Below are positions 3,934 to 22,019 of a stretch of 64,000 bases of DNA, one piece after another; the first letter of the stretch is position 1, and every line of letters starts with the position of its first letter. The translations under genes were made by a program, and so were the position numbers. The DNA comes from Rhodospira trueperi. GTDB taxonomy: Bacteria > Pseudomonadota > Alphaproteobacteria > Rhodospirillales > Rhodospirillaceae. Under the pieces are notes generated by a model, which was not told where the DNA came from, did no database searches, and worked only from the letters and a program-made list of their open reading frames with translations. Location: assembly GCF_900101965.1 (NCBI RefSeq), contig NZ_FNAP01000007.1, forward strand, positions 1-64,000, written 5' to 3'.

Positions 3934-4449
3934 ATGCTCCCGAAGCTCATTAAGACCTGGAACGTGGTGGTCGACGGCCGCTCCCTGGCGGGGGTGGCCG
4001 AGGACCTCACCCTGCCGGAACTGACGCGGGTCACCGAGAGCCTGCGCAACGCCGGCATGCTCGGCCCGGTCGAGGGCGACCTGGGCCTGGAGGGCCTGTC
4101 GCTGTCCTTCACCCTGACCGAGTTCAACGAGGACATCCTGCGCGCCTGGGGCCTGTTCGGGGCGGGCAACATCCCGGTCCGCTTCCTCGCCGCCGCCCGC
4201 GCCGACGATGCCGAGGCGCCGACGGACGCGATCGAGGTCTCCGTGCGGGGCCGCTGGAAGAAGATCAGCCACGGCACGGTCAAGGGCGGCGAGGTCGCCA
4301 AGATGACTGTCGAGGTCCCCTGCACCTACTACCGCTACCGCCTCAACGGCGACACCGTCATCGAGATCGACCTGATCGCCGGCACCGAGATCGTGGACGG
4401 CGTGGACCGTCAGGCGGACATGCGCCGCGCGATTGGTCTTGTTTCCTGA
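3934..4449 (+). CDS. FII: major tail tube protein (P2 gpFII-like)
   Basis: A 171-residue protein, the usual length for P2 FII. It begins MLPKLIKTWNVVVDGRSLAG and has the family's LPELTRVTESLRNAGMLGPV segment and a C-terminal YYRYRLNGDTVIEIDLIAGT strand region. It forms the inner tube through which DNA passes. It sits 15 bp after the sheath gene with a GGGGAGG ribosome binding site. Confidence 0.95.
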   Translation: MLPKLIKTWNVVVDGRSLAGVAEDLTLPELTRVTESLRNAGMLGPVEGDLGLEGLSLSFTLTEFNEDILRAWGLFGAGNIPVRFLAAARADDAEAPTDAIEVSVRGRWKKISHGTVKGGEVAKMTVEVPCTYYRYRLNGDTVIEIDLIAGTEIVDGVDRQADMRRAIGLVS

Positions 4450-4601
4450 TCGCCGCAGCGACCCTAGCAGGTCGCGCGGCTCCGCCGCTAAAGCGGCGCC
4501 GGCCCGGTCGGGCCGGAGGGGTACACCAAACCCGGGCGCCGGCCCGGTCGGGCCGATAGGCCCGGAGCCGCGCGGCGTCCGAAGGACGGCGCTGCGGCGA
4601 T
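4449..4601 (+). repeat. nested palindromic repeat region before gene E
   Basis: A 153-bp gap framed by a perfect 12-bp inverted repeat (ATCGCCGCAGCG at 4449-4460, CGCTGCGGCGAT at 4590-4601). Nested inside are a second inverted pair (GCGCGGCTCC at 4474-4483, GGAGCCGCGC at 4564-4573) and a 20-bp direct repeat centred on the palindrome GGCCCGGTCGGGCC, copies at 4495 and 4535. A transcript here would fold into a long branched hairpin. Confidence 0.75.
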
Positions 4602-4621
4602 GAAAAGAAAGGACCCAAAAC

Positions 4622-4954
4622 ATGAACGAGTTCCGCAGCGTCAAACTCTATCAACCCCTGCCTGTCGGGGGCGACAAGACCCTGGACACCCTGCGCTTCC
4701 GCGCGCCCAAGGCCGGCGATCTGCGCGGCCTGAAGCTGGCGCTGCTGGAAGAGGCGGAGGTGGATGCCGTCCTGACCCTGGCGCCCCGGATCAGCATGGA
4801 CGCCGTCTCCGCCGCGCACTTGGCCGAGTTGCACCCGGCCGACCTGCTGGCCCTGACGGCGGAGGTGTTGAGTTTTTTCGCACCCCCCGGGACGGGGGCG
4901 GGCGCGATGGGCCGGGACTCCCCGACGACGCCCGGGCCGCATGGGGTGTCCTGA
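4622..4954 (+). CDS. E: tail assembly chaperone gpE (unshifted product)
   Basis: A 110-residue protein of the P2 gpE type (phage tail assembly chaperone, PF10109-like). It begins MNEFRSVKLYQPLPVGGDKT and carries the family pattern DTLRFRAPKAGDLRGLKLAL. gpE and its frameshifted form bind the tape measure and guide tail-tube assembly. It lies between tube and tape-measure genes as expected, with AAAGGA upstream of the ATG. The last 24 residues, after the slip site, are low-complexity and probably functionless. Confidence 0.9.
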   Translation: MNEFRSVKLYQPLPVGGDKTLDTLRFRAPKAGDLRGLKLALLEEAEVDAVLTLAPRISMDAVSAAHLAELHPADLLALTAEVLSFFAPPGTGAGAMGRDSPTTPGPHGVS

Positions 4955-5088
4955 TGCAGGCGTTCCCGGGATCCTTTCCACCGGACGTCTTCGATGCCCT
5001 CGATCTCGATCGCTACGCCGAGGCCTATGGCATGGCGGTCGAGACCCTGAACGCCCAGGCGGAGGCGATGCGCACCGGTCGCCGATAG
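4622..5088 (+). CDS. E': tail assembly chaperone gpE+E' made by -1 frameshift
   Basis: The slippery heptamer T TTT TTC lies at 4873-4879, in phase with gene E (codons AGT TTT TTC). A -1 shift continues from 4879 to the TAG at 5086-5088 and adds about 69 residues containing LMQAFPGSFPPDVFDALDLD and a helical tail. P2-like phages make E+E' by a -1 shift at a run of T at the same place, and both products are needed for tail assembly. A GC-rich stretch follows the slip site and could form the stimulatory structure. The downstream frame has no suitable start of its own. Confidence 0.85.
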
Positions 5089-5097
5089 GGAGACCCA

Positions 5098-5165
5098 TCC
5101 GGCCCGACCGGGCCGGCGGGCCGAAGGCCCGGAGCCGCGCGAGCCCGAAGGGCGAACTGGGGCGA
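5098..5165 (+). repeat. palindromic repeat before the tape-measure gene
   Basis: Contains GGCCCGACCGGGCC, the reverse complement of the palindrome seen twice at 4495-4555, then AGGCCCGGAGCCGCGCG, an exact 17-base match to 4558-4574, then a GCCC-GAA-GGGC mini-hairpin. As before gene E, the block is followed by an A-rich ribosome-binding stretch and an ATG. Confidence 0.7.
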
Positions 5166-5179
5166 AAAAGGAAACCAAA

Positions 5180-7399
5180 ATGCCCGACCTGAAACTCTCC
5201 ATCGCCCTCGCGGCCATCGACACAGCCACGGCGCCACTGCGCCGTGTGCGGGAGGCCGCGCGCCAGATGGGCGGCGGGGCGCGGACGGCGGCGCAGCGCC
5301 TGGGCAGCCTGGAACGCTCGGCCGAACAGTTGGCCGCGTTCCGCAAGGTGCGCGCCAACGCATGGCAGAACACCCGTGCCCTGGCCGACCTTGAGGAACA
5401 ACTGACCGGCGCGCGGGAAAAGCTCGCCCGCGTGACCAAGGAGACCGGAGGCACCGGCCGGGCCTTCCAGCGGGCCACCCAGCATGTGGCGTTCCTGGAA
5501 AAGAAAGAGGCCGGGCTCATCAAGCGGACGCAGGGCATCCAGACGGCCATGTCGCGCGCCGGCGATGCCCTGCGCGAGGCCGGGGTGGACACCGGTCATG
5601 CCGCCGCCGAGACCCGGCGCCTGTCGGCCGACATCGCCCGCGCCATCCGGCGCGCCAACGGCCTGGCCCGGATCGAGGGCCACTTCGACCGCATCCGCCA
5701 CGCCGCCGGGGGGGCGGCCCTGGCCGCCGGTGCCCTCACCGGGCGCCTGTCCAGGCTCTCCGGCGCCCTCGGGCTCGGGGGCCTGTTGGGCGGCGGTGCG
5801 GCTGTCGGGGGCCTGGGCTCCATGATGCAGGGCTTTGCGGAGTCCGGCCGCGAGATCGACCAGTGGGCCGGGCGCATCGGGGTGTCCACCACTGCGCTGC
5901 AAGCCCTCACCGCCGTCGGCGGACGCTTCGGCATCCAGCAGGACGCCATGATCGACGGCCTCAAGGAACTGTCCCTGCGCGCCGATGAGTTCGCCGTCAC
6001 AGGGGGCGGGGAATCGGAAGAGGCATGGCAGCGCCTCGGCTTGGGACGGGATCAGATCAACGCCGTCAAGGGCGACACCGAAGCCCTGTTCGAGCTTGTG
6101 CGCAGCCGGATGGAAAACATCCAGGACGTCTCGGAACGCCAGCGCATCGCCGACGAACTGTTCGGCGGCACGGCGGCCGAACAGATGGTCGAGATGCTGT
6201 CCGCCTCCACCGACGAGCTGCGCCGCATGCGGGCCGAGGCGGAGGCCAACGGCCAGATCCTGTCGGAGGAAGAGATTGCCCAGGCGCGGACCCTATCGGA
6301 CTCCCTGCGCCACCTGTCCGGCATCATGGGCGGTTTGGCCAAGACCATCTCCGCCAAGCTCGCGCCGGTCCTCACACCCCTGTTGCAGCAGCTTGGGGAC
6401 TGGATCGGCGCCAACCGCGAGCTGATCGCCAGCGAGATCTCGTCGATCGTCCAGCGCCTGTCCGACGCCCTCGACCGCGTGGACTGGTCCGCCGTGCTGG
6501 CGAGCCTGAAGGCGTTCGGGTCCCGGGTCCAGTCGGTCGTGGAGGCCATCGGCGGCTGGGACACCGCCATGATCGCCGTGGTGGCCACCCTGAACGCGGG
6601 CCTGATCGGGTCCCTGGCCAGCCTGGGCGTTCAACTGGGGCGGCTGGGCGCGGCCCTGCTGGCGAACCCGATCACGGCGGTCATCGCGGCCATCGCCTTC
6701 GGCGCCTATGCCATCTACGCCAACTGGGACAAAATCGGGGTCTGGTTCCAGGCCAAGCTGGACAAGGTCCGCGCGGCGTTCGACGTCGGGCTGGGCTCCG
6801 GACTGTGGGAGATCATCAAGCAGACCAGCCCGTGGTCGCTCGTCCGCGATGCCTTCAACGGCCTGTTCAAGTGGCTGTTCGGCGTGGACCTCTCGGCCCT
6901 GGGTCGCCAATGGTTCGGGCCGCTCCTGGATGCCATCGACGCCGTGGACCGCGAGATCACCGCGTGGATCGCCTGGATCGATCAGAAGCTGCAGCCGGTG
7001 GTCGGGATGATGCGTTCGGCCGGCAGCATGCTGGGCTTCGGGGGCGATGACGACGAAGAGGATGCGGCTGCGGCGCCCCCCGCCGACACGCCGTCCCGGC
7101 CGTCGCTTTCTCTGCCGAGCCGGTTTGCCGACCGCGAGCCCTACGCCGGCGGCCGGCCGCCCCCGGCCAACGATGACCGGCCCCGTTTCAACGTGGTGGA
7201 CACCAGCGCCGGTGTCGCGGCGGCGGCGGCCGCCAACGCGCCCAACGTGGACTCCCACGACACGGTCAACCTGACGGTCAACGTTCCGCCGGGCTCGGAC
7301 CCCGAGGAGATCAAGCGCATCCTGGCGGAGCTCCTGGACGACCGGGAGGCGTCCCGCGCCTCCGCCGCCCGCGCGCACCTGTACGACGGGGTGCGGTGA
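5180..7399 (+). CDS. T: tail tape measure protein (P2 gpT-like)
   Basis: A 739-residue protein whose length sets tail length. Residues 1-170 are predicted coiled coil (repeated Arg/Glu/Ala heptads such as LEEQLTGAREKLARVTKE). A Gly-rich hydrophobic stretch (about 195-215) is followed by the TP901-type tape-measure domain with GRIGVSTTALQALTAVGGRFG. Hydrophobic segments occur near 465-520, typical of tape measures that insert in membranes during DNA delivery. A Pro/Ala linker and an acidic C-terminus follow. It lies between E/E' and U. Confidence 0.95.
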   Translation: MPDLKLSIALAAIDTATAPLRRVREAARQMGGGARTAAQRLGSLERSAEQLAAFRKVRANAWQNTRALADLEEQLTGAREKLARVTKETGGTGRAFQRATQHVAFLEKKEAGLIKRTQGIQTAMSRAGDALREAGVDTGHAAAETRRLSADIARAIRRANGLARIEGHFDRIRHAAGGAALAAGALTGRLSRLSGALGLGGLLGGGAAVGGLGSMMQGFAESGREIDQWAGRIGVSTTALQALTAVGGRFGIQQDAMIDGLKELSLRADEFAVTGGGESEEAWQRLGLGRDQINAVKGDTEALFELVRSRMENIQDVSERQRIADELFGGTAAEQMVEMLSASTDELRRMRAEAEANGQILSEEEIAQARTLSDSLRHLSGIMGGLAKTISAKLAPVLTPLLQQLGDWIGANRELIASEISSIVQRLSDALDRVDWSAVLASLKAFGSRVQSVVEAIGGWDTAMIAVVATLNAGLIGSLASLGVQLGRLGAALLANPITAVIAAIAFGAYAIYANWDKIGVWFQAKLDKVRAAFDVGLGSGLWEIIKQTSPWSLVRDAFNGLFKWLFGVDLSALGRQWFGPLLDAIDAVDREITAWIAWIDQKLQPVVGMMRSAGSMLGFGGDDDEEDAAAAPPADTPSRPSLSLPSRFADREPYAGGRPPPANDDRPRFNVVDTSAGVAAAAAANAPNVDSHDTVNLTVNVPPGSDPEEIKRILAELLDDREASRASAARAHLYDGVR

Positions 7400-7418
7400 T
7401 GTTTGCATTCGGCGCCAG

Positions 7419-7480
7419 CCCGCTCCCCCACCCGGCCACCCTACGCCAGGATCATATGGGTGGCCGGGTGGGGGAGCGGG
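7419..7480 (+). terminator. perfect 23-bp hairpin between tape measure and gene U
   Basis: Left arm 7419-7441 (starts CCCGCTCCCCCACCC) and right arm 7458-7480 are exact reverse complements, with a 16-base loop. The stem nearly continues for 8 more pairs outward with one wobble and one mismatch. No T-run follows, so it is not a standard intrinsic terminator for the plus strand; an mRNA processing or partial-termination element within the tail operon is as likely. Confidence 0.6.
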
Positions 7481-7510
7481 CCGGTGCCGCAAGACAAGAA
7501 AGGTCGATAA

Positions 7511-8035
7511 ATGCCCCTGATGACCCTCGGCCTGTTCACCTTCCAGACCGACTCGCTGCCCTATGCCACGGCGGCGCGGGACAGCGCGTGGCGCTGGCCG
7601 TCCCAGGACCGCGCCGGCGCCGCCCCCGCGCACCAGTACACCGGTCCAGGCACGGACACCCTGACCCTGACCGGGACCCTGATGCCCGAGATCACGGGCG
7701 GCCCGGTCCACCTGGACACGCTCCGCCGCATGGCGGCCGAGGGCAAGGCATGGCTGCTGATCGACGGCCAGGGGCGGCGGCGCGGAACCTGGATCGTCAC
7801 CAGCGTGCGCGAGACCCGCACCCACATGTTCAGCGACGGCACGCCCCGCAAGGTGGACTTCACCCTGTCCCTGACCCGGTACAGCGACGATGATCTGGCC
7901 GCGCGCGGCGATCTGGCGGACAGCCTGCCCGGCCACCTGTCCGCCCCCGCGCCGGACGACGTGATCGCCGGCGCCCGCGACCTGGCCGGAGGGCTGGCCG
8001 GGGCCGCGTCCGATCTGTGGAGCCTGTACCGGTGA
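7511..8035 (+). CDS. U: tail terminator/baseplate protein gpU-like
   Basis: A 174-residue protein with the P2 gpU family signature: MTLGLFTFQTDSLPYATA at the N-terminus, then the WRWPSQDR segment and the later KVDFTLSLTRYSDD strand. gpU acts at the end of tail assembly in P2. Its TGA overlaps a GTG that starts gene D, so the usual LysM-type gene X between U and D is absent. Confidence 0.92.
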   Translation: MPLMTLGLFTFQTDSLPYATAARDSAWRWPSQDRAGAAPAHQYTGPGTDTLTLTGTLMPEITGGPVHLDTLRRMAAEGKAWLLIDGQGRRRGTWIVTSVRETRTHMFSDGTPRKVDFTLSLTRYSDDDLAARGDLADSLPGHLSAPAPDDVIAGARDLAGGLAGAASDLWSLYR

Positions 8036-9093
8036 TCCCCGCGTGGCGCATCACGGCCGACACCGTGGACGTGACCGCCGCCATTGCGGCCGGTCTGGTG
8101 AGCCTCAAGATCACGGACAAGCCGGGCCTCGAATCCGACGAACTGGAGTTGACCGTCGCCGATCCTGACGGCGCCCTGGCGTTGCCCCGCCGTGGGGTCC
8201 GTCTGTCCGCCGCCATCGGCTGGCGGGACGGGCCGATGGTCTATCGCAGCACCTATCGAGTGGATGAGGTGCGGCACCGGGGCCCGCCGGACGTGGTCAT
8301 CGTGAAGGCCCGCGCGGCCGACCTGACCGGAGGCCTGCGCGCCCATCGGGACCTGTCCTATGACGACACCACCCTGGGCGCCGTGCTCCAGGCCGTGGCC
8401 GCGCGCCACGGGTTGATCCCGGCCATTGCGCCGGACCTGGCCGCGCTGCCGATCCCCCATCTGGATCAGGCCACGGAATCGGACGTCAACCTGATCTCGC
8501 GCCTTGCCCGCCAGGTGGACGCCATCGGCACCATCAAGGACGGCCGTCTGGTGTTCACGCCGCGCGGCTCCGGTCGCACCGCCGCCGGGGCCACCTTGCC
8601 GGCGATCCGGGTGGCCCGGGCGGAGACCGTGTCCCACGCGTTCGGGATCCAGGACCGCGAGGGCGAGACCACCGGGGTCCGCGCCGTCTGGCGCGACCAC
8701 GACGCGGCCGAGGATCGGGCCGAGCTGGCGGGCGCCCCCGGTACCGTCACCACCCTGCGGCGCCTTTATCCGTCCCAGGCCGAGGCCCGCGCCGCCGCCC
8801 GTGCGGCCCTGACCGATCAGGCGCGCGGGCAAAGGGACCTGCGCCTGCGGCTGGCCCTCGGCCGCCCCGAGGTGATCGCGGGGCAGCCCCTGGCCGTGAG
8901 CGGATTCCGCTCGGAGATCGATGGCGTGCAATGGGTGGTCGAAACCGTCCAACACGAGCTGGACGCCAGCGGCGGCTTCCGAACGCGCATCGAGGCCGTG
9001 GAACAGCAGCCCCCGGCCCAGGGCGGCGGGTCAGGCGGCGCCGCCTCCCTGACCGAGACGGGCGTGAATTGGTCGGGCCTGTCGGCCGCCTAA
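8032..9093 (+). CDS. D: late control/baseplate hub protein gpD-like
   Basis: A 353-residue protein of the P2 gpD family (baseplate hub, related to T4 gp27). It begins MIPAWRITADTVDVTAAIAAG and has the family's LKITDKPGLESDELELTVADPDG segment. The chosen start is GTG at 8032 because it overlaps the gpU stop (GTGA); GTG at 8017 is a less likely alternative. This is the last tail gene of the block. The C-terminus is Gln/Gly/Ser-rich. Confidence 0.93.
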   Translation: MIPAWRITADTVDVTAAIAAGLVSLKITDKPGLESDELELTVADPDGALALPRRGVRLSAAIGWRDGPMVYRSTYRVDEVRHRGPPDVVIVKARAADLTGGLRAHRDLSYDDTTLGAVLQAVAARHGLIPAIAPDLAALPIPHLDQATESDVNLISRLARQVDAIGTIKDGRLVFTPRGSGRTAAGATLPAIRVARAETVSHAFGIQDREGETTGVRAVWRDHDAAEDRAELAGAPGTVTTLRRLYPSQAEARAAARAALTDQARGQRDLRLRLALGRPEVIAGQPLAVSGFRSEIDGVQWVVETVQHELDASGGFRTRIEAVEQQPPAQGGGSGGAASLTETGVNWSGLSAA

Positions 9094-9112
9094 AACAATC
9101 GCATTCATGCGC

Positions 9113-9141
9113 TTGGCACCTACAAGAAGAAACGCTATACT
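9113..9141 (+). promoter_or_regulatory. sigma70-type promoter for the AT-rich cargo gene
   Basis: TTGGCA at 9113-9118 and TATACT at 9136-9141 are separated by 17 bases, five of six matches to the -35 consensus and four of six to the -10. It sits directly after the end of gene D and about 130 bp before the cargo ORF. A GCTGGC/GCCAGC hairpin (9182-9200) lies in the predicted leader. Confidence 0.6.
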
Positions 9142-9274
9142 TTTTACGGCCGTGGTGAGCGGTGCGTTTGTTTTTTCGTATGCTGGCAACCTGAGCCAGC
9201 AATATTAGTTTCACAAAGGGCAGTGATGCCGATAAAAAGTATGATGCTTATGAACAGAGAGCGGAGTTACTTCT

Positions 9275-9949
9275 ATGTGGTATGTCTACTTAATGTTGGC
9301 GCCAGTTCTTATTGTTCTCATTGTCTTTTTTATGTTTAATTTTCTTGTTAAGAAAGTGATGAAGTTGGAGCAGGCATCAATAGTAGAAATCATAAATGAG
9401 AACGGGAAATTTATTGAAGTGTGCATTCTTTTGATGAGCTTTTTTGTCGCACTCTTTGGTTATGTAGCCTGGAAAATAGATTATGATAGAGAATTAGAAT
9501 TTTCAGCATACAAAGAAATGTCGAGAATTGTAGAGCGTCGAGAAGACTATATGCGCTCCATTAAGCCGCATGACGTAACCGAGTTCATTGTTGATGATGA
9601 ATATACACTGCAAAAATATATATCTTTCCAGGAAATGGTTTTTGATGCAAAGATGTGCTATGATGCAAATATTTGTAATGCAAATTTCATTGATAGTTAT
9701 TATTGCAGTTCTATTTTTGCCTTAAAGACAAAAATGCTGATGGATGAAATTATTAATCATAATAACATCTGGTGCAACAAAGTTGGCCGATGCGAGCGAG
9801 CGAACGAATACATATACGGATCCCGTATAATGATGGAAACTATTTCGGACATTAAATACATATGTCCAAACGTTGATCAAGAAATATTTAGCAAAAAACG
9901 GATTGAAATAATTTATGATTACGCCAATGCGCTGCCATTATTGCTTTGA
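9275..9949 (+). CDS. AT-rich membrane protein, prophage cargo (moron), function unknown
   Basis: A 224-residue protein in a strongly AT-rich island inside GC-rich phage DNA. Two hydrophobic helices (about 3-26 and 49-67) form a hairpin with a short loop, followed by a soluble part of about 155 residues rich in Ile, Asn, Asp and Tyr with six or more cysteines (for example MCYDANICN and IWCNKVGRC). Its codons (ATA, TTA, AAA) are rare in the neighbours. It has its own promoter and a GGAG site eight bases before the ATG. These traits mark a recently acquired lysogenic-conversion gene. Roles in superinfection exclusion or defence are typical for such genes but nothing here proves one. I recognise no family. 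Confidence 0.8.
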   Translation: MWYVYLMLAPVLIVLIVFFMFNFLVKKVMKLEQASIVEIINENGKFIEVCILLMSFFVALFGYVAWKIDYDRELEFSAYKEMSRIVERREDYMRSIKPHDVTEFIVDDEYTLQKYISFQEMVFDAKMCYDANICNANFIDSYYCSSIFALKTKMLMDEIINHNNIWCNKVGRCERANEYIYGSRIMMETISDIKYICPNVDQEIFSKKRIEIIYDYANALPLLL

Positions 9950-10114
9950 TATACAATAAGTTGTACAAAAACTCATAAAAACTGCGCTTGAAAATGAATC
10001 ATATATTTACTTGAGTGTGCCGCACCCTCTCTTATTTCTGGTCAACACCAAATACATTTACGCCCGTGGCGCCGGTGCGCTATGCCCCGGCATTTTGTGG
10101 GCTTTGAACAAGTC

Positions 10115-10387
10115 TCAGGCCGGGCGTTTATCGTCCGTGGGGCGGGTGGTCGCGGCGCGCAATCTCCGGCGCAAAGCGATCTGGTGTTCGGCCAGGGCGT
10201 CGAGACGGTCGCCGGGCCCGGCCGCTTGGGATGTGATCGTGCCGTACCACTCGGCCGCCAACTCTCCTAGGCAGCGTTCGGGGATGGCTTAGCCCTCGGC
10301 CTTGTAGACCGCCTGGATCGTGTCGACGATTCGTCCCATCAAGTCGCGATCACGGTTCATGGGGGGGCGGCAGGTGAGGCGTCCCAT
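10115..10387 (-). pseudogene. small phage ORF interrupted by an in-frame TAA
   Basis: Reading the minus strand from ATG at 10387 gives MGRLTCRPPMNRDRDLMGRI and on to KAEG, then TAA (10289-10291), then 57 more residues in the same frame (AIPERCLGELAAEWYGTITS onward) to TGA at 10115-10117. Both halves look like one helical, charged protein of about 90 residues. An AGAAGAG motif precedes the start. It follows the repressor gene on the same strand. It may be a broken gene, a sequencing error, or two short ORFs. No family recognised. Confidence 0.5.
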
Positions 10388-10426
10388 TGGTGGCTCTTCT
10401 GCCGGTCCTGCGTCGCCGTGTTCAAT

Positions 10427-11050
10427 TTATCCCTTCCGGTAGCACCCAACGATCAGCATGACATTTCTGACCTCGGCCCGAGGGATCGGATCCAGGTCTC
10501 GCGGCGGGTTGTACTGGCGGACCCTGACTTCGTCGTCCGTCATCGCAATGAGAGCCTTGACCATGGCCTCGTTGACGCCGTCGCCATCCTCTTTGACCAG
10601 CAGCACATCGTCGCCCTGATTCACGGGCCGGTGTGGATGAATCAGCACCATATCCCCTTGCCGATAGGCTGGCGCCATCGAGTCGCCCACGACGTACATG
10701 CCGAACGCGCCCCGGACGTCCCGAAGTGGCTCCGGTCGCGTGACATATTCGATTGGATCGAAGGTCACGATCATGCCGGTCCGGCCGCCCCTCGCGCTTG
10801 AATAGATCGGCAGATCGCGGCCGGAGGCTCGCATATCCTCCGTTCGCTCAATCATAACGCGGGCGACTTCTGGCGGAGGTTCCAGTTCTAGGTAAGCCGC
10901 CACCGCAGGAATTTCGTCAGCCTTCAGCCGCCGCTTTCCTTGAAGGATGCGGGTCACGACTGCCGAATTCCGGCCGAGGGCATCGGCCAACCCGATCCGC
11001 GACTTTGCGGGGTTGTCCAGCCCTTCCTTGATCCATTCGATCACGTCCAT
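10427..11050 (-). CDS. phage repressor, XRE-type HTH plus S24 peptidase-like domain
   Basis: A 207-residue CI-like repressor keeping the prophage silent. Residues 15-45 form the helix-turn-helix (SRIGLADALGRNSAVVTRIL). The C-terminal LexA/S24 fold has the nucleophile Ser124 in VVGDSMAPAY and the general base Lys165 in EAMVKAL. The ATG at 11050 is preferred to one at 11086 because the longer form would place the first operator inside the gene. No Ala-Gly or Cys-Gly dipeptide is present where RecA-stimulated self-cleavage normally occurs, so induction may use another route, such as the ORF6N antirepressor. Confidence 0.88.
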   Translation of the reverse strand: MDVIEWIKEGLDNPAKSRIGLADALGRNSAVVTRILQGKRRLKADEIPAVAAYLELEPPPEVARVMIERTEDMRASGRDLPIYSSARGGRTGMIVTFDPIEYVTRPEPLRDVRGAFGMYVVGDSMAPAYRQGDMVLIHPHRPVNQGDDVLLVKEDGDGVNEAMVKALIAMTDDEVRVRQYNPPRDLDPIPRAEVRNVMLIVGCYRKG

Positions 11051-11059
11051 GGAACGATT

Positions 11060-11076
11060 TTTGCGCAAACCGCAAA
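11060..11076. promoter_or_regulatory. repressor/Cro operator, copy 1
   Basis: TTTGCG-N5-CGCAAA, a perfect 6+6 palindrome, ten bases upstream of the repressor start codon. The same 17-bp pattern recurs at 11109-11125. Confidence 0.8.
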
Positions 11077-11098
11077 CAAGCGCCATTTCGTTTTTCGT

Positions 11099-11127
11099 TT
11101 GACAGCACTTTGCGAAATGCGCAAATT
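11099..11127 (+). promoter_or_regulatory. rightward early promoter with operator copy 2
   Basis: TTGACA at 11099-11104 is a perfect -35 element; the -10 at 17-bp spacing is weak (CAAATT, 11122-11127). The second operator TTTGCG-N5-CGCAAA (11109-11125) fills the spacer, so a bound repressor would block RNA polymerase. A start near 11134 would leave the Cro-like mRNA with almost no leader. Confidence 0.6.
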
Positions 11128-11134
11128 TGGCGTC

Positions 11135-11428
11135 ATGGACACGTCACTCACTCCCATAGCGCAGCGCGTCATTGCCAAGTTCGGCGGGCACAGGGCCGTC
11201 GCGCGGATCACAGGCGCCTCTGTTTCAAGGGTCTACCGGTGGACCTACAGCCGTGAACGCGGTGGAACCGGTGGCCTCATCCCGCAACGGTATCAGGGCG
11301 TTCTGCTGCGGGCTGCGCGGCAGCGGGGCATTGAATTGGCGCCCCAAGATTTCTTCGACCTACCAGCAAACGATGTCCCGGCTCATGCTTCGGAACAGCC
11401 GGAAAGCGCAATGAGGTTTCCGCAATGA
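11135..11428 (+). CDS. Cro-like HTH regulator
   Basis: A 97-residue protein encoded divergently from the repressor. MDTSLTPIAQRVIAKFGGHR and the following AVARITGASVSRVYRW form a helix-turn-helix of the Cro/YdaS type, followed by IPQRYQGVLLRAARQRGIEL, a pattern common in such short regulators. It should bind the two TTTGCG operators and favour lytic growth. ATG at 11135 is preferred; ATG at 11117 lies inside operator 2. No Shine-Dalgarno sequence is visible, which fits leaderless translation. Confidence 0.75.
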   Translation: MDTSLTPIAQRVIAKFGGHRAVARITGASVSRVYRWTYSRERGGTGGLIPQRYQGVLLRAARQRGIELAPQDFFDLPANDVPAHASEQPESAMRFPQ

Positions 11429-11955
11429 ACCGCCAGCACGATGATCACGTCTACAAGGCCCTGAAAGCCGCGTTTCGGCGGCTGGTCGGGCAAAACGGCG
11501 GGTACTGCGCCGCCGCCGATCTGACGCGGGTCGGCAAGAGCCAGCTTCAGGAATACGCCAGCCCCCATCACATGGACGTGTTCCCGCCCGCCGACGTCAT
11601 CATCGACCTGGAGCGGGACGCGGCCGACCCCATCGTCACCCGCCAGATGATCCGCCTGTTGGCCGACGCGGACACGCCGGAACCGGCGTGGGACGGCGAC
11701 TCGGACGATGTCGCCGCCGTGTTGCACATGGCGACGCGGGGGCAGGTGGCCCTGGGCGAGTTGGCCCGCTGTGCCGTCCAGGCGGCCGAGGACGGCGACC
11801 TGTCGGACGAGGAACTGGCCGCCCTGATCCAGCGCGCGGAAACGCGCATGCACGTTGCCCAGTCCGACTACGACGCCCTCATGAAACTCCGCGAAACCCG
11901 GCGCGGACAGCCCCACCGCCGCAGGGCGGCACAATCCGGGAGATCACCACGATGA
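11425..11955 (+). CDS. phage CII-like regulatory protein
   Basis: A 176-residue protein starting at an ATGA overlap with the Cro-like gene. The first 75 residues (YKALKAAFRRLVGQNGGYCA, then DLTRVGKSQLQEYASP) resemble the phage regulatory CII/CP76 family (PF06892-like), which acts in the lysis-lysogeny decision or early transcription. The middle is acidic and the last 20 residues are basic. It overlaps the next gene by four bases. Family call from pattern; exact role inferred from position. Confidence 0.65.
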   Translation: MNRQHDDHVYKALKAAFRRLVGQNGGYCAAADLTRVGKSQLQEYASPHHMDVFPPADVIIDLERDAADPIVTRQMIRLLADADTPEPAWDGDSDDVAAVLHMATRGQVALGELARCAVQAAEDGDLSDEELAALIQRAETRMHVAQSDYDALMKLRETRRGQPHRRRAAQSGRSPR

Positions 11956-12251
11956 AACGCCCCCCGAACAACGGCAATTCCCGAAACTCGGCCCGCCCGT
12001 TCCGGAACAGCGCCAAGTGCCCCGTCTGCGGCGAGACCTGCCGCACCATCAAGGTCTGTCAGGTCACGCCGGCGATCACGGAAATCACTTACGGCTGCAC
12101 CAACGACGACTGCGGATTCCGCTGGGTTGGGCAGTTGGCGCCGGTGCGCGTGCTGCATGCCTCGTTGCTGCCGCCGTCCCGCCACCTGACGCCCCTTCCG
12201 CCGCCATCCGTCGCCACCGCGCCGCTCGCGCGGGCCGGGGCGGGCGGCTGA
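11952..12251 (+). CDS. Ogr/Delta-type zinc-finger late activator
   Basis: A 99-residue protein starting at an ATGA overlap. It carries CPVCGETCRTI, then CTNDDCGFRWVGQL, the CxxC-x(n)-CxxxxC arrangement of the P2 Ogr/P4 Delta family, followed by the basic-hydrophobic tail seen in that family. Ogr proteins recruit RNA polymerase to late (tail, head) promoters. Its place in the early operon rather than after gene D differs from P2. The last 30 residues are Pro/Ala-rich. Confidence 0.75.
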   Translation: MKRPPNNGNSRNSARPFRNSAKCPVCGETCRTIKVCQVTPAITEITYGCTNDDCGFRWVGQLAPVRVLHASLLPPSRHLTPLPPPSVATAPLARAGAGG

Positions 12252-12273
12252 TCCAGGGGTGGGGGGAAACACG

Positions 12274-13293
12274 ATGACATCGGACATCCAGTTGAATGAC
12301 ATCGTCACTTTGATCCGTGGCGATGCCCGGACGGCGCTGCAATCTCTTCCTGATGGCGCGGCGCGGTGTTGCGTCACCTCGCCGCCGTATTTCGGTTTGC
12401 GCGATTACGGCCACCCCGACCAGATTGGTCTGGAACCGGACCCAGCCGCCTATGTGGCTGAACTGGTTGCCGTGTTCCGCGAGGTCCGCCGCGTGCTGTC
12501 CGCCGACGGGAGCCTTTGGGTCAACCTCGGCGACTGCTACGCCAGCGACGGCGGTACGGGCCGACAAGGCACGCGGGGCCAGCGGTTTGACCGCCAGCAC
12601 ACCCAGGAAACTCTGGGCGAGACGCGAAAATGGCCGGATAGCGGGATCAAGCCTAAGGACCTGATCGGGATCCCGTGGATGGTAGCCTTCGCCCTGCGGG
12701 CCGATGGCTGGTACCTGCGTGAAGACATCGCGTGGCACAAGCCGAACGCCATGCCCGAAAGCGTCCGCGACCGTTGCACGCGGGCGCACGAGTATGTGTT
12801 CCACTTCACGAAATCGCCCCGATACTACCACGACGCGGATGCGATCAGTGAGCCGGCTGGGCAGCCCGCCGGGCCGCGACGTTTGACGGGTCAACACAAG
12901 GCGGACGCGGGCGGCGCAACAACGAACGGGACCAGCACCAGCACGCTGGGCAGCAATGGGGGGCCATCAACCCGCAACCGCCGTTCCGTCTGGGCCATTC
13001 CAACCCGCCCGTTCAAGGGCGAGCACTTCGCCACGTTCCCGGTCGGCCTTCCCACCCTATGCCTCCGCGCTGGATCGGAGCCCGGTGACGTCGTTCTGGA
13101 CCCCTTCGCGGGGGCCTGCACGACGGGTGTCGCCGCGCTGGCGGAGGGGCGCCGGTTCGTGGGCATTGAACTCAACCCGGCCAACCTTGTCCTTGCCCGT
13201 CCGCGTCTGCGGCAACCCGGGTTCGGCCTGATACACGCGCAACCCGCTGCGATCCCACCGCGCCCGTCAGAGGTGGGAGGCTATCATGCGTGA
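12274..13293 (+). CDS. DNA methyltransferase, SPPY type (beta class), orphan
   Basis: A 339-residue modification enzyme. The catalytic motif TSPPY at residues 35-39 and the SAM-binding motif DPFAGACTTG near 276-285 occur in that order, as in beta-class N4-cytosine or N6-adenine methyltransferases. SPPY is more often found in N4-cytosine enzymes, but the modified base cannot be settled by eye. The HEYVFHFTKSPRYY segment is typical of phage and CcrM-like members. No restriction gene is adjacent, so it probably protects phage DNA. GGGGGGAA precedes ATG 12274. It overlaps the primase gene by eight bases. Confidence 0.9.
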   Translation: MTSDIQLNDIVTLIRGDARTALQSLPDGAARCCVTSPPYFGLRDYGHPDQIGLEPDPAAYVAELVAVFREVRRVLSADGSLWVNLGDCYASDGGTGRQGTRGQRFDRQHTQETLGETRKWPDSGIKPKDLIGIPWMVAFALRADGWYLREDIAWHKPNAMPESVRDRCTRAHEYVFHFTKSPRYYHDADAISEPAGQPAGPRRLTGQHKADAGGATTNGTSTSTLGSNGGPSTRNRRSVWAIPTRPFKGEHFATFPVGLPTLCLRAGSEPGDVVLDPFAGACTTGVAALAEGRRFVGIELNPANLVLARPRLRQPGFGLIHAQPAAIPPRPSEVGGYHA

Positions 13294-15904
13294 CGATATC
13301 GCCGCCGACGTGCGGAAACGCCTGATCCATGACTACAAGATGCGCCCCCGGGGCGAGTGGCTGCAACGCGGCGTCTGCCCCCAGTGCGGCGAGAAGGAAC
13401 TCTACGCTAACGGCACGGAGCCCTGGGTCATCCGCTGCGGACGCCTGAACAAGTGCGGGTTCGAGGCGTCGACCAAGGACCTGTATCCCGACGCCTTCGG
13501 GCAGTTGAACGAGCGTTATCCCGCCACGTCCGAGAAACCCAACGAGACCGCGCACGCCTACATGGGGTTCGTGCGGGGCCTGCCCGACGCCGCGCGCGGC
13601 TGGTACCGCCAAGGAAAATTCTGGCACCCCCAGGGCGACCGCAGCACGGCCACCGTGTTGTTCGAGATCGCGCCCGGCATCTGGATGGAACGGTTCGTTG
13701 AACCGGTGCGGGTGAAGGAAGACGACGGCGACGTCACGCTGCGCAAGCAGCACTTCCATGGGGCACACAAGGGCCTCGCCTGGGCGCCACCGAAACAGCG
13801 GGTCGGGGACGAGCTTTGGATCGTCGAGGGTTGCATCGACGCCGCCACCCTGGCCTGCGCCGGGCTGTCCGCCGCCGCCACCCTGTCCGCGTCCAACTAC
13901 CCGGGCACCTTCCTGCAGCGACTGGCCGACGCCGGGCAAAAGCCGGTCCTGGTCTGGGCGTTGGACAACGACCCCGCCGGCAAGGGCGCCATGCGCCGCC
14001 ATATCCGGCGCGCCGAAAAGGACGGTTGGACCTGCCGCGCCGCCCTGGTGCCGCGCGACGGGCGCAAGAAGCGCGATTGGAACGACCTCTGGCTCGCCGG
14101 CGCCCTGACCGAAGACACGCGCGCCGACACCCTCGACCGCTGCCGCTTCCACGGCGATCTGTTCCGCGCCCGCACGGCCAAGGAAAAGGGCCTGCTGATC
14201 TACCGCCGCAAGAGTGCTTCCGCCTTCGGCCTCGACTTCGACAGCCGCACATGGTGGTGGAAGCTGGACCAGGAGCGCCTGAACAAGGCCACCATGGAGG
14301 GCCTGTGCCGCGAGGATGCCGAGGACATGGCCGCCGAGTGCCATGAGATCTGCAACTGCGCGGTCTCCTTCCTGTACTTCCAGCAGTCCAAGCTGACGGA
14401 CGAGAGTTGGTACTACACGCGGGTCGATCTGCCCGACGGCCGCACGCTCAAGAACACCTTCCGGGGGGCGGACATCTCGTCCGCGTCCGAGTTCAAGAAG
14501 CGCCTGATCTCCATCGCGCCGGGGGCCCTGTACAGCGGATCGTCCCAGCAACTGAACTGGATCGTCGGCCGCTACCTGCGGCGCATCCGGGTGGTCGAGA
14601 CCGTCGAGTTCATCGGCTATTCCCGCGAACACGAGACCTATGTGTTCCCGGACGTGGCCGTGCATCACGGTCGGGTGCATCGCCTGAATGACGAGGACTT
14701 TTTCGAGGTCGGCCGCCTGTCGATCAAAAGCCTCAACGGCTCGCTCGCGCTGCATATCGGCAAGCCGACCGAGTACCGCCACGACTGGCCCGATCTGGTC
14801 TACCGCGCCTATGGCGCCCAGGGGCTGATCGCCGCCGCGTTCTTCCTCGGCTCCCTGGTCGCGGAACAGATCCGCGCGGTCCACAAGTCGTTCCCCTTCC
14901 TGGAGATCGTGGGCGAGGCGGGGGCGGGCAAATCCTCTCTGATCGAGTTCCTGTGGAAGCTGGTCGGCCGCGTCGATTACGAGGGCTTCGACCCCAACAA
15001 GGCCACCAGTGCCGCCCTGGCCCGCAACTTCTCCCAGGTGTCGAACCTGCCGATCTCGCTGATCGAAAGCGACCGGGACAGCCCGGACAGCAAGCAGCGG
15101 CAATTCGACTGGGACCAGATGAAGACCGCCTACAACGGCCGCGCCGTGCGCTCGCGCGGGGTGAAGAACGGCGGCAACGAGACCTATGAGCCGCCGTTCC
15201 GCGCCTCGGTCCTGATCTCCCAGAACGCGGCTGTGAACGCCTCCGAGGCCATTCTCACGCGCATCGTGCACCTGTTGTTCGATTGCTCCGGCCATTCCGC
15301 CGAGGGCAAGGACGCCGCCGACGAACTCTCGGCTTTGCCCGTCGAACACCTGTCCCACTGGCTCATCCTGGTCTGTCAGGCCGAAGACCGGATCATGGAG
15401 ACGGTGCGCACCCGCACCCCGTTGCATGAAAAGGCGTTGCTGGCCGACCCCGCCATCCGGTCCCACCGCATCGCCAAGAACCACGGCCAGATGATGGCCC
15501 TGGCCGAGGTGCTGTGTGACCTGTGCGAGATCCCCCGGCCGCGCCGAGAGGACGTGCTGGAAACCCTGCACACCGCCGCCACCCGCCGCCAGGACGCCAT
15601 CGCCTCCGACCATGCCGTGGTCGAGGAATGGTGGGAGCTGGTCGAGTTCCTGGACCCCGACGGCGACAAGCTGAACCACAGCCGCAAGCCGGACCAGCTC
15701 CTCGCTCTCAACCTCAACCAGGTCATCCAGATGGCCCAGCAGCACCAGCAGGTGTTGCCGGCCACCTCGGCCGACCTGAAGCGGCACCTCAAGACCAGCA
15801 AGAGCCGCAAGTTCCTGGGCATCAAGACCGTCAACTCCGGCCAGCCCGGTGACTTCTACAACCGCGCCGTCAAGTGCTGGTGCTTCGAACAACCCCGCAA
15901 GTAG
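13286..15904 (+). CDS. phage primase-helicase (zinc ribbon, TOPRIM, P-loop ATPase)
   Basis: An 872-residue replication protein. A zinc ribbon spans residues 31-56 (CPQC then CGRLNKCGFE). A TOPRIM core follows: Glu in WIVEGCIDAATL near 180 and Asp-x-Asp in ALDNDPAGKGA near 226. The C-terminal half holds a Walker A motif (VGEAGAGKSSLIEF) near 540 and an Arg/Asn-rich helicase core. The arrangement fits a prophage primase that also unwinds DNA at the origin. It dominates the early operon and lies between the methyltransferase and small accessory genes. Confidence 0.85.
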   Translation: MRDDIAADVRKRLIHDYKMRPRGEWLQRGVCPQCGEKELYANGTEPWVIRCGRLNKCGFEASTKDLYPDAFGQLNERYPATSEKPNETAHAYMGFVRGLPDAARGWYRQGKFWHPQGDRSTATVLFEIAPGIWMERFVEPVRVKEDDGDVTLRKQHFHGAHKGLAWAPPKQRVGDELWIVEGCIDAATLACAGLSAAATLSASNYPGTFLQRLADAGQKPVLVWALDNDPAGKGAMRRHIRRAEKDGWTCRAALVPRDGRKKRDWNDLWLAGALTEDTRADTLDRCRFHGDLFRARTAKEKGLLIYRRKSASAFGLDFDSRTWWWKLDQERLNKATMEGLCREDAEDMAAECHEICNCAVSFLYFQQSKLTDESWYYTRVDLPDGRTLKNTFRGADISSASEFKKRLISIAPGALYSGSSQQLNWIVGRYLRRIRVVETVEFIGYSREHETYVFPDVAVHHGRVHRLNDEDFFEVGRLSIKSLNGSLALHIGKPTEYRHDWPDLVYRAYGAQGLIAAAFFLGSLVAEQIRAVHKSFPFLEIVGEAGAGKSSLIEFLWKLVGRVDYEGFDPNKATSAALARNFSQVSNLPISLIESDRDSPDSKQRQFDWDQMKTAYNGRAVRSRGVKNGGNETYEPPFRASVLISQNAAVNASEAILTRIVHLLFDCSGHSAEGKDAADELSALPVEHLSHWLILVCQAEDRIMETVRTRTPLHEKALLADPAIRSHRIAKNHGQMMALAEVLCDLCEIPRPRREDVLETLHTAATRRQDAIASDHAVVEEWWELVEFLDPDGDKLNHSRKPDQLLALNLNQVIQMAQQHQQVLPATSADLKRHLKTSKSRKFLGIKTVNSGQPGDFYNRAVKCWCFEQPRK

Positions 15905-16736: not shown

Positions 16737-17114
16737 ATGACAGACGCCACCCCCGTCTGCATCGGCGTCGATCCCGCAGCCGGCGACGACATGACCGTCG
16801 TCGTTTTGCCCCATCGGTACCGCCGCGATCTGCTCCAGTGCCTGACCCTGCACGATCAGGGCAACACCGCGTCCGCCCGTCTCGGTGCCTACATTCTCGG
16901 GTCCGACGCGGCAGAGGCCGGCATGGGGGCGGACGCCTGCCCCTTCGCCGAGGACGCGCTGCCCGAGCTGGCCGAGGCATGGCGGCGCGGCCGTCAGGAC
17001 ACGCTGGACTTCGGGGCCGGCAAGCGCCGGCCGGCCGATCGCCTGTCGTCCAAGTGCCGCATCCGCGCGCCGATCGGCAGCACCCACGCCGCCCACACGC
17101 ATCCGGGGGACTGA
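16737..17114 (+). CDS. hypothetical phage protein with an Rmf-like segment
   Basis: A 125-residue protein; ATG 16737 is chosen because GGAGGCG sits seven bases upstream. Residues about 50-85 (GSDAAEAGMGADACPF then LPELAEAWRRGRQD) follow the spacing G..AA.AG....CPF.....W..G of small ribosome-modulation-factor-like proteins found in phages. The similarity is by eye and tentative. The C-terminus is basic. Function unknown. Confidence 0.65.
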   Translation: MTDATPVCIGVDPAAGDDMTVVVLPHRYRRDLLQCLTLHDQGNTASARLGAYILGSDAAEAGMGADACPFAEDALPELAEAWRRGRQDTLDFGAGKRRPADRLSSKCRIRAPIGSTHAAHTHPGD

Positions 17115-17116
17115 CC

Positions 17117-17395
17117 ATGACCGCCATGCAGCCGGACATGTTTGGGGGGCCGTCCGTCGCCGACGGGCCGGAGCCCAAGCACAAGCCGAGACGCCCAGGA
17201 GGGTACGCCGCGCGCCCGGGCGGCGGGCCGAAGGGGGAGACCTGCCGGACCTGTCTGCACTACGTGCGGAAGGGCCGGGGCAAGTCCGTGTACCGCAAAT
17301 GCGACCTGCTTCGGGACGTCTGGACCAACGGCACCGGCAGCGATATCCGCGCCGGCGCGCCCGCATGCTGCCTGTGGAAGGAGGTCTCCGAGTGA
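17117..17395 (+). CDS. small cysteine-rich, probably zinc-binding phage protein
   Basis: A 92-residue protein. After a Pro/Gly-rich start (MTAMQPDMFGGPSVADGPEP), the core GGPKGETCRTCLHYVRKG and later KCDLLRDVW and PACCLW give a CxxC...C...C zinc-ribbon-like pattern that I recognise as a recurrent small protein of alphaproteobacterial prophages. It overlaps the next gene, an adenine methyltransferase, by four bases (GTGA), which suggests the two act together or are translationally coupled. Confidence 0.7.
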   Translation: MTAMQPDMFGGPSVADGPEPKHKPRRPGGYAARPGGGPKGETCRTCLHYVRKGRGKSVYRKCDLLRDVWTNGTGSDIRAGAPACCLWKEVSE

Positions 17396-18108
17396 CCGCC
17401 GCCGCCCCGCATCCCACCCTGTGGCCGCATCTGGCGAACGCGGCGCTCGCCGCTTCCTATGCGTCCCTGACCGCCCAGGCCGTGGCCGCCGAATGCTACG
17501 AGACGCCCGCGTGGACCGCGCGCCGGGTGCTCGAGGTCGAGGTCCTCACACCCCGCGTCCTGGACCCCTGTTGCGGCACCGGCATTCTGTCCCAAGCGGC
17601 CCGTGCCGCCGGCTATGACGTCGGGTCGCTGGACCTGCACCGCTGGGGCTATGCGGATCAGCACGGACAGGCGGACTTTCTGGCGGACCCGCCTTCCTGG
17701 ATCGCGTGGCCGATGTTCCGGGAGACCCCGGCCTATCTTCGGCACAACATGCCGCGACCCCTGTCCGGGGTGAGCGTGTTCATGAACCCGCCCTTTTCGC
17801 GGGCCACTGAGTTCGTGGATCGGGCCTTTTCCCTGGGGGCTCGAAAGGTCCTGTGCTTCCAGCGCTTTGCGTGGCGGGAAAGCCAGGCCCGCCGGGCGTG
17901 GTGGGACGCCCGGCCGCCGGCGCGCATCTGGCTATGCGGCGACCGCGCCCACTGCTGGCGCTTCGACATCCCGCCCGAGGCCCGTACCGGCGGCGCCCCG
18001 ACCGCCCACGCGTGGTTCGTCTGGGAACAGGGCCATCGCGGCCTCGAGGCCGTCGCCACGATCTGGAAGGACGGGCAGGCCGAGCCCCCCGTCCCCTGTC
18101 CTGTCTGA
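17392..18108 (+). CDS. DNA N6-adenine methyltransferase-like protein, phage
   Basis: A 238-residue protein with a SAM-binding motif I (DPCCGTG, about residues 59-65) and a catalytic NPPF motif IV (about 125-128) in that order, the signature of adenine-N6 DNA methyltransferases. It starts at GTG 17392, overlapping the zinc-binding gene. No partner nuclease is nearby, so anti-restriction protection of phage DNA is the simplest role. This is a second methyltransferase in the same prophage, of a different class from that at 12,274. Confidence 0.82.
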   Translation: MTAAAPHPTLWPHLANAALAASYASLTAQAVAAECYETPAWTARRVLEVEVLTPRVLDPCCGTGILSQAARAAGYDVGSLDLHRWGYADQHGQADFLADPPSWIAWPMFRETPAYLRHNMPRPLSGVSVFMNPPFSRATEFVDRAFSLGARKVLCFQRFAWRESQARRAWWDARPPARIWLCGDRAHCWRFDIPPEARTGGAPTAHAWFVWEQGHRGLEAVATIWKDGQAEPPVPCPV

Positions 18109-19197: not shown

Positions 19198-20283
19198 ATG
19201 CCAGTGTACCGGATCAAAGGCATCAAGCGGGTGCGGAACCCCAGAACGGGTGCCGTCTACCTGTATCACCGGGGCACGGGCAAGCGTCTGCGCCAGACGG
19301 AGGGAACGGCCGCGTTCCTTGAGGAAGTGGCCGCCCTCGACCGCGAAGTGCAAGACCGGCCGTCCGAGCCGAAATCGCCGGCGGGCACGTGGGGCTGGCT
19401 GCGGGAACTGTACCTAGCGAGCCCCAAGTATGCCCAGCTCGCGCCCCGGACGCGCAAAGGCTACCGCACCGTCTTGGACTATCTGGCGGAGCCCAACCCG
19501 GATCGCCCCGGCAAAGGGATGAACGCGGTCCCCTTGGACCGGATCGACAGCCCGTCCGTCATGCGGCTGCGCGATGCGACGCATGAGCGTCACGGCTGGC
19601 GGCAGGCGAATCTGGTGCTCGCCGTGATTTCGCTGGTGTGGAACTGGGGCCGACCCTACGGCTACGTCACCGGGCCAAATCCGGCCGAGAAGATTCCGCG
19701 CATCAAAAGACCGCGCGACAAACCCGCCGCGAACCGCCCCTGGACCGACGACGAGTTGGCCGCCGTCCTGGCGGCGGCACCGACGGGCGTCCGGGAGGCC
19801 GTGGCCCTTGGGGCATATACCGGCCTTCGCCAGGGTGACGTGTTGGCGCTGCCGTGGTCGGCGATCGAGGACGGATGGCTCAGGTGGCGCCAGTCGAAGA
19901 CCGGCGAAGAGGTCTGGATCCCCGTGCATCGCGATTTGGCCGCGATCCTGTCCCGGGCCGAACGCCGGGCAACGATGATCGTGGCCGGGGCGCGGGATCG
20001 CCGCCCGTACAGCGGCGACGGCTTCCGGACGTTGTTCTTTCGCCTGATTCGCAAGCTGGAGGCGGACGGCCGCATCGGCCACGGACTGACGTTCCATGGT
20101 CTGCGGCACGGGCTCGCAACACGCTTGGCCGACGCCGGCGCCGACGACCGCACCATTGCGGCGATCACCGGTCACAAGCAGGTCTCGATGGTCCAGCACT
20201 ACACCCGCACGGCCGACAAACGGCGCCGCGCCCGCGCGGGAATGGACCTGCTGGAAGGCGGCAAGCCGGAGGACAAGCCGTGA
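19198..20283 (+). CDS. int: tyrosine recombinase, prophage integrase
   Basis: A 361-residue integrase. Residues 1-60 are a basic arm-binding-like region, about 65-160 a core-binding domain, and 180-340 the catalytic domain with Arg211 (TGLRQGD), Lys234, His300/Arg303 (FHGLRHG), His326 (TGHKQ) and Tyr335 (HYTRTAD), all present. It inserts and excises the phage at the tRNA-Lys gene 95 bp downstream. It is last in the early operon, right after the excisionase-like gene. Confidence 0.95.
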   Translation: MPVYRIKGIKRVRNPRTGAVYLYHRGTGKRLRQTEGTAAFLEEVAALDREVQDRPSEPKSPAGTWGWLRELYLASPKYAQLAPRTRKGYRTVLDYLAEPNPDRPGKGMNAVPLDRIDSPSVMRLRDATHERHGWRQANLVLAVISLVWNWGRPYGYVTGPNPAEKIPRIKRPRDKPAANRPWTDDELAAVLAAAPTGVREAVALGAYTGLRQGDVLALPWSAIEDGWLRWRQSKTGEEVWIPVHRDLAAILSRAERRATMIVAGARDRRPYSGDGFRTLFFRLIRKLEADGRIGHGLTFHGLRHGLATRLADAGADDRTIAAITGHKQVSMVQHYTRTADKRRRARAGMDLLEGGKPEDKP

Positions 20284-20377: not shown

Positions 20378-20453
<76 letters not shown>

Positions 20454-21793: not shown

Positions 21794-22019
21794 CGCGCCA
21801 GCCTCCCATGTCGTTGCCCTGATGGTACCGCGTTTCAGCGCGTCGGTAGAGGAAATCCCGCGCGATCCGGACCGGATCGCGCGGTGATTCGCCAATATGT
21901 CGATCTTCTGGGCAGCTCGCGCGACGCGCCCGAAATGCTGCGGGCAGGTTGTGGTTGCTTGGGACCGGGGCCATGCCGCACCATGGCCGAGATCGCTTCC
22001 GTCCGCCCGAGTCGCGCCC

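Follow-up and report, generated by a model that had tools for sequence, protein, structure and literature searches.

A P2-like prophage of Rhodospira trueperi carries an AT-rich accessory slot between its tail gene D and its repressor gene, and this slot contains one intact open reading frame (ORF), which encodes a 224-amino acid (aa) orphan protein. The analysis was made on a stretch of 64,000 nucleotides at the start of contig NZ_FNAP01000007.1, hereafter referred to as the window. We propose, with a probability of roughly 0.45, that this cargo gene is a single-gene moron that protects the lysogen, and that its product is a superinfection-exclusion protein of the inner membrane whose periplasmic domain is perhaps held by disulfide bonds. 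Since no homologue, domain or confident fold was found for the protein, the proposed function is drawn from the position of the gene and the anatomy of its product.

An AT-rich slot between gene D and the repressor

The prophage occupies positions 1–20283 of the window (67.7% GC), on a contig of 232,516 bp with 67.2% GC. It encodes a tail fibre, sheath, a head-closure-family protein, tape measure, U and D, as well as a CII-like activator and a repressor of the S24 type, and it also contains two methyltransferase genes and the genes for an integrase, a Toprim primase and an ORF6N antirepressor. The order sheath, tape measure, U and D is that of P2 itself, and this order, together with the phage integrase, identified the element as a P2-like prophage. 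The same tail gene order is present in Peduoviridae records. The contig begins within the tail region and does not contain the prophage's left part.

The slot (9094–10077, 984 bp, 36.7% GC) is flanked on the left by gene D (8017–9093, plus strand; phrog_52 tail protein, E 5e-111) and on the right by the gene for a Peptidase_S24-type repressor (10427–11086, minus strand; phrog_4, 1.4e-17; PF00717, 1.7e-11). A first-pass annotation, made from the sequence, had claimed an abrupt change in base composition after gene D and a return to normal before the repressor, and this was borne out by GC content in 300-bp windows, which fell from 70–78% in gene D to 32–36% in the slot and stood at 60–66% between the slot and the repressor. 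On the entire contig, the slot was the sole cluster of 600-bp windows below 45% GC (20-bp steps). Its right end was judged from a single relative, a prophage of the sister species Roseospira marina (L034), in which blastn homology to the window extended through the end of gene D, stopped there and resumed at 10078 with a conserved phage block of 270 bp (10078–10347; 88% identity to L034:3778-4047). The limits first given for the island (9094–10060) were therefore right as to position, and the right end lies slightly farther, at 10077. Direct repeats that might mark an insertion were sought around the slot; short imperfect matches were the only ones seen, and none of them was located at both slot ends. 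In 10078–10360, one minus-strand frame is interrupted by an in-frame stop in the window; L034 has no stop at that position.

The cargo gene and its product

The cargo gene (9275–9949, plus strand) has 33.9% GC. GC at codon positions 1, 2 and 3 was 0.40, 0.25 and 0.37, compared to 0.76, 0.55 and 0.89 in gene D, so that its codon use is unlike that of the phage, as had been claimed. When the slot was shuffled 1000 times with dinucleotides preserved, no ORF of this length arose (longest shuffled, 174), and no other ORF of at least 60 codons was located wholly within the slot.

The first description of the product as a 224-residue, two-helix, Cys-rich protein agrees with its sequence, which predicts two hydrophobic segments and contains seven cysteines (residues 50, 128, 134, 144, 167, 173 and 197). 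The segments comprise residues 7–25 (9293–9349, plus strand; mean Kyte-Doolittle value 2.77) and 46–64 (9410–9466, plus strand; 2.34), and are followed by a region predicted from the sequence and from low-confidence models to be soluble and probably helical (residues 68–224; 9476–9946, plus strand), which contains six of the cysteines. Two single-sequence AlphaFold2 models (mean pLDDT, 57.5 and 51.1) suggest, to be read with caution, a mostly helical protein. Residues 1–25 contain no K/R and residues 26–46 contain four, while the acidic region 68–224 has 19 K/R and 27 D/E. Considered with the positive-inside rule, this charge pattern mildly favours a topology in which both ends are outside.

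Homologue searches placed the protein in no family. At E 10, it matched neither Pfam nor PADLOC, and two PHROGs matches (E 0.82 and 1) were not significant; NCBIfam gave no match at E 0.01, and the best match among PDB sequences (E 0.79) was likewise not significant. No match was detected by tblastn against annotated phages and plasmids at E 1. In a collection of genome contigs, a scan that reaches close relatives only yielded 31 stretches fitting the pattern and no relative, and viral contigs returned the same prophage only, whether the query was the entire protein or residues 108–224. At E 0.01, whole-genome searches gave matches in one of 198 relatives, two of 385 genomes of the class and one of 398 of the phylum, in overlapping sets that each count the own genome. 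The second class-level match (E 0.0066) was rejected, because it lies inside a 474-codon frame that does not have the same anatomy; this frame looks like one for a benzoyl-CoA oxygenase component. With phmmer against 24,824 ORFs from 160 D loci, the protein found itself alone below E 1, and the best Foldseek matches to the first AlphaFold2 model had E values of 1.0 (PDB) and 0.52 (BFVD). The earlier statement that the long cysteine-containing soluble part matches no known family was thus upheld in the libraries searched, and a clear match to a housekeeping family, which would have spoken against prophage cargo, was seen neither in Pfam (E 10) nor in NCBIfam (E 0.01) nor among the PDB sequences. 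The protein family would be new; the gene itself is best taken as a prophage moron, a known kind.

Promoter and leader

The first-pass annotation had assigned the gene a sigma-70-like promoter of its own. A match to such a promoter (TTGGCA-17-TATACT, 10/12) is present at 9113–9141 on the plus strand and is weakly suggestive, but the same score was reached in 24 of 1000 trials in which the 181-bp leader was shuffled, the number of promoter matches in 9000–11200 was at chance level (3 observed versus 2.6 expected), and a terminator-like stem-loop of seven pairs (9181–9201, plus strand), also present in predicted folds, intervenes between the match and the gene. A promoter specific to the cargo gene, and with it the claimed expression from the silent prophage, is thus no more than possible, and the stem-loop possibly represents the end of the D operon. 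Three stretches tested for a stable leader RNA folded no better than shuffles. A 37-codon ORF (9226–9339, plus strand) runs, in another frame, into the beginning of the cargo gene and is preceded, as judged by eye, by a ribosome-site-like sequence before its ATG; it is a possible leader or means of translational coupling, and may be due to chance. Since the cargo gene is located directly downstream of the late gene D and in the same direction, late expression, that is, during the lytic cycle, is also possible.

Genes in the slot of near relatives

A search of 298 genomes gave a match to gene D in 22 of them, including the own genome, and 20 surrounding stretches were taken. The regions downstream of D were read, for up to eight ORFs per locus, in 13 of these 20 loci (L041 in part); the others were L035, in which the contig ends near D, and L046 and L048–L052, which have the most distant D. 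The slot of L034 contained an ORF6N gene and an unrelated gene with 43% GC. Another R. marina prophage (L033), in which homology extended through the end of D without resuming after the slot, carried a ParE/RelE toxin gene. In L037, the slot contained a gene of the sce7726 family (PADLOC model cll) and one for a beta protein (PADLOC PD-Lambda-2_C), the latter system being matched by its C component only; PD-lambda-2 is described as having three components in the part of the report consulted (Vassallo et al., PMC9519451). Other near-relative loci that were read had genes without assigned identity downstream of D. When ten of the relatives' cargo proteins, picked by eye, were compared to PADLOC at E 0.01, three had a match (two in L037 and one weak) and seven had none. 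These data indicate that the cargo gene, being absent from kin, is accessory.

The slot of a Telmatospirillum prophage (L080:9001-9978) contains a gene with 41% GC for a protein of 326 aa that appears, by eye, nucleotide-cyclase-like. It had no PADLOC match, and its copy in L038 had no Pfam, PADLOC or NCBIfam match.

A wider survey of D-to-primase intervals

For a broader comparison, an alignment of ten D proteins was used as the query and the primase as the downstream anchor, which in the window is the Toprim primase gene (13286–15904, plus strand; phrog_1139, 3e-280; PF13155, 1e-10). The best 80 of 140 relatives in genome contigs and the best 80 of at least 582 in viral contigs gave a sample of 160 loci that is rich in Xanthomonas and Stenotrophomonas. 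A primase was found downstream of D in 103 loci, at a distance of 1374–7386 bp; the other 57 had none, partly since the available DNA ends first. Dereplication left 64 intervals, one being that of the window's own phage and nine apparently being among the 13 near loci (L074, L075, L080, L083, L084, L087, L089, L094 and L114). The figures that follow cover the D-to-primase interval alone, which includes the immunity region, and refer to mechanically called ORFs, some of which are not genes. A 400-bp stretch at least 12 GC points below its locus was present in 38 of the 64 intervals, and 48 of them contained one or more ORFs of at least 120 codons and at least 7 GC points below the locus. There were 87 such ORFs (33 codirectional with D and 54 on the opposite strand), which formed 60 clusters, 48 of them singletons. 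At least one hydrophobic segment was present in 34 of these ORFs and at least two in 13, the cargo gene included.

Helix-turn-helix families were the commonest Pfam matches among the 87 ORFs, which also included a TIR-type Pycsar effector and PIN domains, and PADLOC matches to one or more of them came from fifty families. When ten further proteins were compared singly to PADLOC at E 0.0001, four matched and six did not. In L099, a Xanthomonas prophage, a PycTM and PycC pair was located beside D, and in L104, from Cardiobacterium, the match was to PDC-M11A, a candidate defence gene. The PADLOC match in L111 spans the helix-turn-helix part only, and this protein may be a regulator. Among annotated phages, Halomonas phage 4908 has an Eco29kI-type restriction enzyme and methyltransferase directly after D, Alfacinha1 and VP58.5 have unnamed genes there, and Bacillus phage ZY1 has about 770 bp without an annotated gene; in ESSI2_ev239, D was not seen in the stretch examined. 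Judged by its sequence content across these phages, the slot is best read as a variable interval between conserved phage genes that is able to hold defence genes.

Broad variation between D and the repressor was also seen in a further locus (L237), and across these P2-like prophages the interval contains many proteins of no assigned family beside some defence genes. About 2.1–4.3 kb downstream of D, another locus (L157; D 60% identical) encodes two proteins of about 290–310 codons with C-terminal hydrophobic stretches that are, by eye, mutually similar, and a protein in L158 is partly similar to this pair.

Comparison with known systems

In Dobby, a phage of Pseudomonas, and Smp131, a phage of Stenotrophomonas, both assigned to the Peduoviridae, tape measure, U and D are followed, as in the prophage, by regulators and by a primase, the latter being related to that of the window. 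They differ directly after D, where Dobby has a LuxR-type regulator and a hypothetical protein, and Smp131 has 654 bp without an annotated gene. In Burkholderia phage KS5 (Peduoviridae; the portion of PMC3091744 consulted), gp12, an annotated membrane protein of 248 aa, is likewise encoded between the repressor and D. However, gp12 has a single hydrophobic segment at about residues 167–191, is encoded on the strand opposite to D and has no similarity to the cargo protein, and the KS5 slot additionally contains an insertion sequence.

According to the sections available of two reports, P2-type hotspots of about 1–5 kb are located between gpA and gpQ, a K139-like hotspot between cI and the integrase gene (Rousset et al. 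2022, PMC9122126), and a second P2 locus holds fun (Vassallo et al. 2022, PMC9519451). As far as these sections describe them, such hotspots and the slot are alike in being small variable loci amid conserved genes, with varied defence genes and unknown proteins, whereas the published positions are gpA-gpQ, the fun locus and cI-integrase and the present one is gene D-repressor. Neither this slot as a hotspot nor the cargo gene was named in those sections or in a literature search that was not exhaustive; a search for literature on Roseospira and prophage found nothing.

Proposed function and alternatives

As a single best guess, phage protection was chosen because of the defence genes among the slot neighbours in kin. 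The moron would have been acquired from a low-GC source and would now occupy a variable slot that separates the late tail operon from the immunity region. Two N-terminal helices would then anchor the protein in the inner membrane with both ends outside, and the six-Cys helical domain would lie in the periplasm, perhaps with disulfides, where it might interfere with the entry of superinfecting phage DNA or with some other early step of infection. P22 SieA, as described in the part of PMC10883804 consulted, provides a model for such action, being a small prophage-encoded inner-membrane protein that is independent of other phage proteins. Compared by description, the two proteins differ, because SieA has 162–164 aa and three predicted helices and the cargo protein has two hydrophobic segments and a Cys-bearing part of 157 residues. 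The original view of the gene as lysogenic-conversion cargo holds in so far as it is a foreign-looking prophage gene in a slot that contains unrelated, often lower-GC genes in kin, some of them known or candidate defence genes; the exclusion or defence role that came with this view is plausible from context only.

A bolder version of this proposal, which we consider rather unlikely, is that the protein represents a new family of single-protein superinfection exclusion, in which the entry of phage DNA is stopped by a helical domain, stapled by disulfides, that an inner-membrane anchor holds in the periplasm, and that the D-to-repressor slot is a defence hotspot of alpha-, beta- and gammaproteobacterial P2-like prophages. 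With no relative in the collections searched and a location that in other phages is taken by Pycsar, restriction-modification and toxin genes, the cargo gene is a short, cheap anti-phage candidate, and gene D provides a simple anchor for mining further candidates from the D-to-repressor slot of P2-like prophages.

Membrane-damaging abortive infection, in which a cytoplasmic domain senses infection, the helices depolarise the membrane and the infected cell dies, is unlikely. PycTM, the effector located beside a cyclase in the same slot of L099, is also a two-helix membrane protein, and the cargo gene is among the 13 slot ORFs of 87 with at least two hydrophobic segments. However, the cargo protein had no PADLOC match at E 10 to any model, including PycTM and CBASS 2TM, no cyclase gene is adjacent to it in the slot, the lack of another ORF of at least 60 codons wholly within the slot argues against a signal-making partner, and the charge pattern mildly points to a periplasmic domain.

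Lysogenic conversion without a direct role against phage DNA, through a change in the envelope, a receptor or host fitness, appears unlikely to much the same degree. It would accord with the radical SAM, decarboxylase, amidase and acetyltransferase matches among the 87 ORFs, as well as with the LuxR-type regulator after D in Dobby, but the cargo protein matches no enzyme or envelope family. A late phage gene co-transcribed with D, such as a lysis-timing or virion-exit factor, is decidedly improbable: although the gene is on the strand of D and begins 181 bp past its stop codon with only weak terminator-like stems between them, it is absent from the L034 slot and has no match below E 1 in other D loci, which argues that it is dispensable for growth in kin, its composition is unlike that of the surrounding phage genes, and Smp131 has no annotated gene at this position. 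That the slot is an AT-rich insert without function and the frame incidental, as the lack of a homologue to reveal selection would allow, is hardly credible in view of the shuffling result, the GC minimum at codon position 2, a feature of coding DNA, and the two strongly hydrophobic segments.

The ends of the prophage

The integrase gene (19198–20283, plus strand; phrog_1, 6e-51; PF00589) forms the right end of the prophage. An IMG/VR viral contig of 20,283 bp, the available part of which is identical to window positions 4275–14946 at the same coordinates, is one that we take, from this identity, to be window 1–20283. The 3′ part of a tRNA-Lys gene follows the integrase gene (20378–20422), and an identical 45-bp copy is present near the end of another contig (C33), as would be expected for an attachment site. 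This 45-bp piece is the probable attachment site, and the copy on C33 suggests the other end of the prophage. This one prophage contains two DNA methyltransferase genes (12259–13293 and 16885–18108). Just outside it, past the tRNA-Lys, a second phage-type integrase gene is located at 21897–23006.
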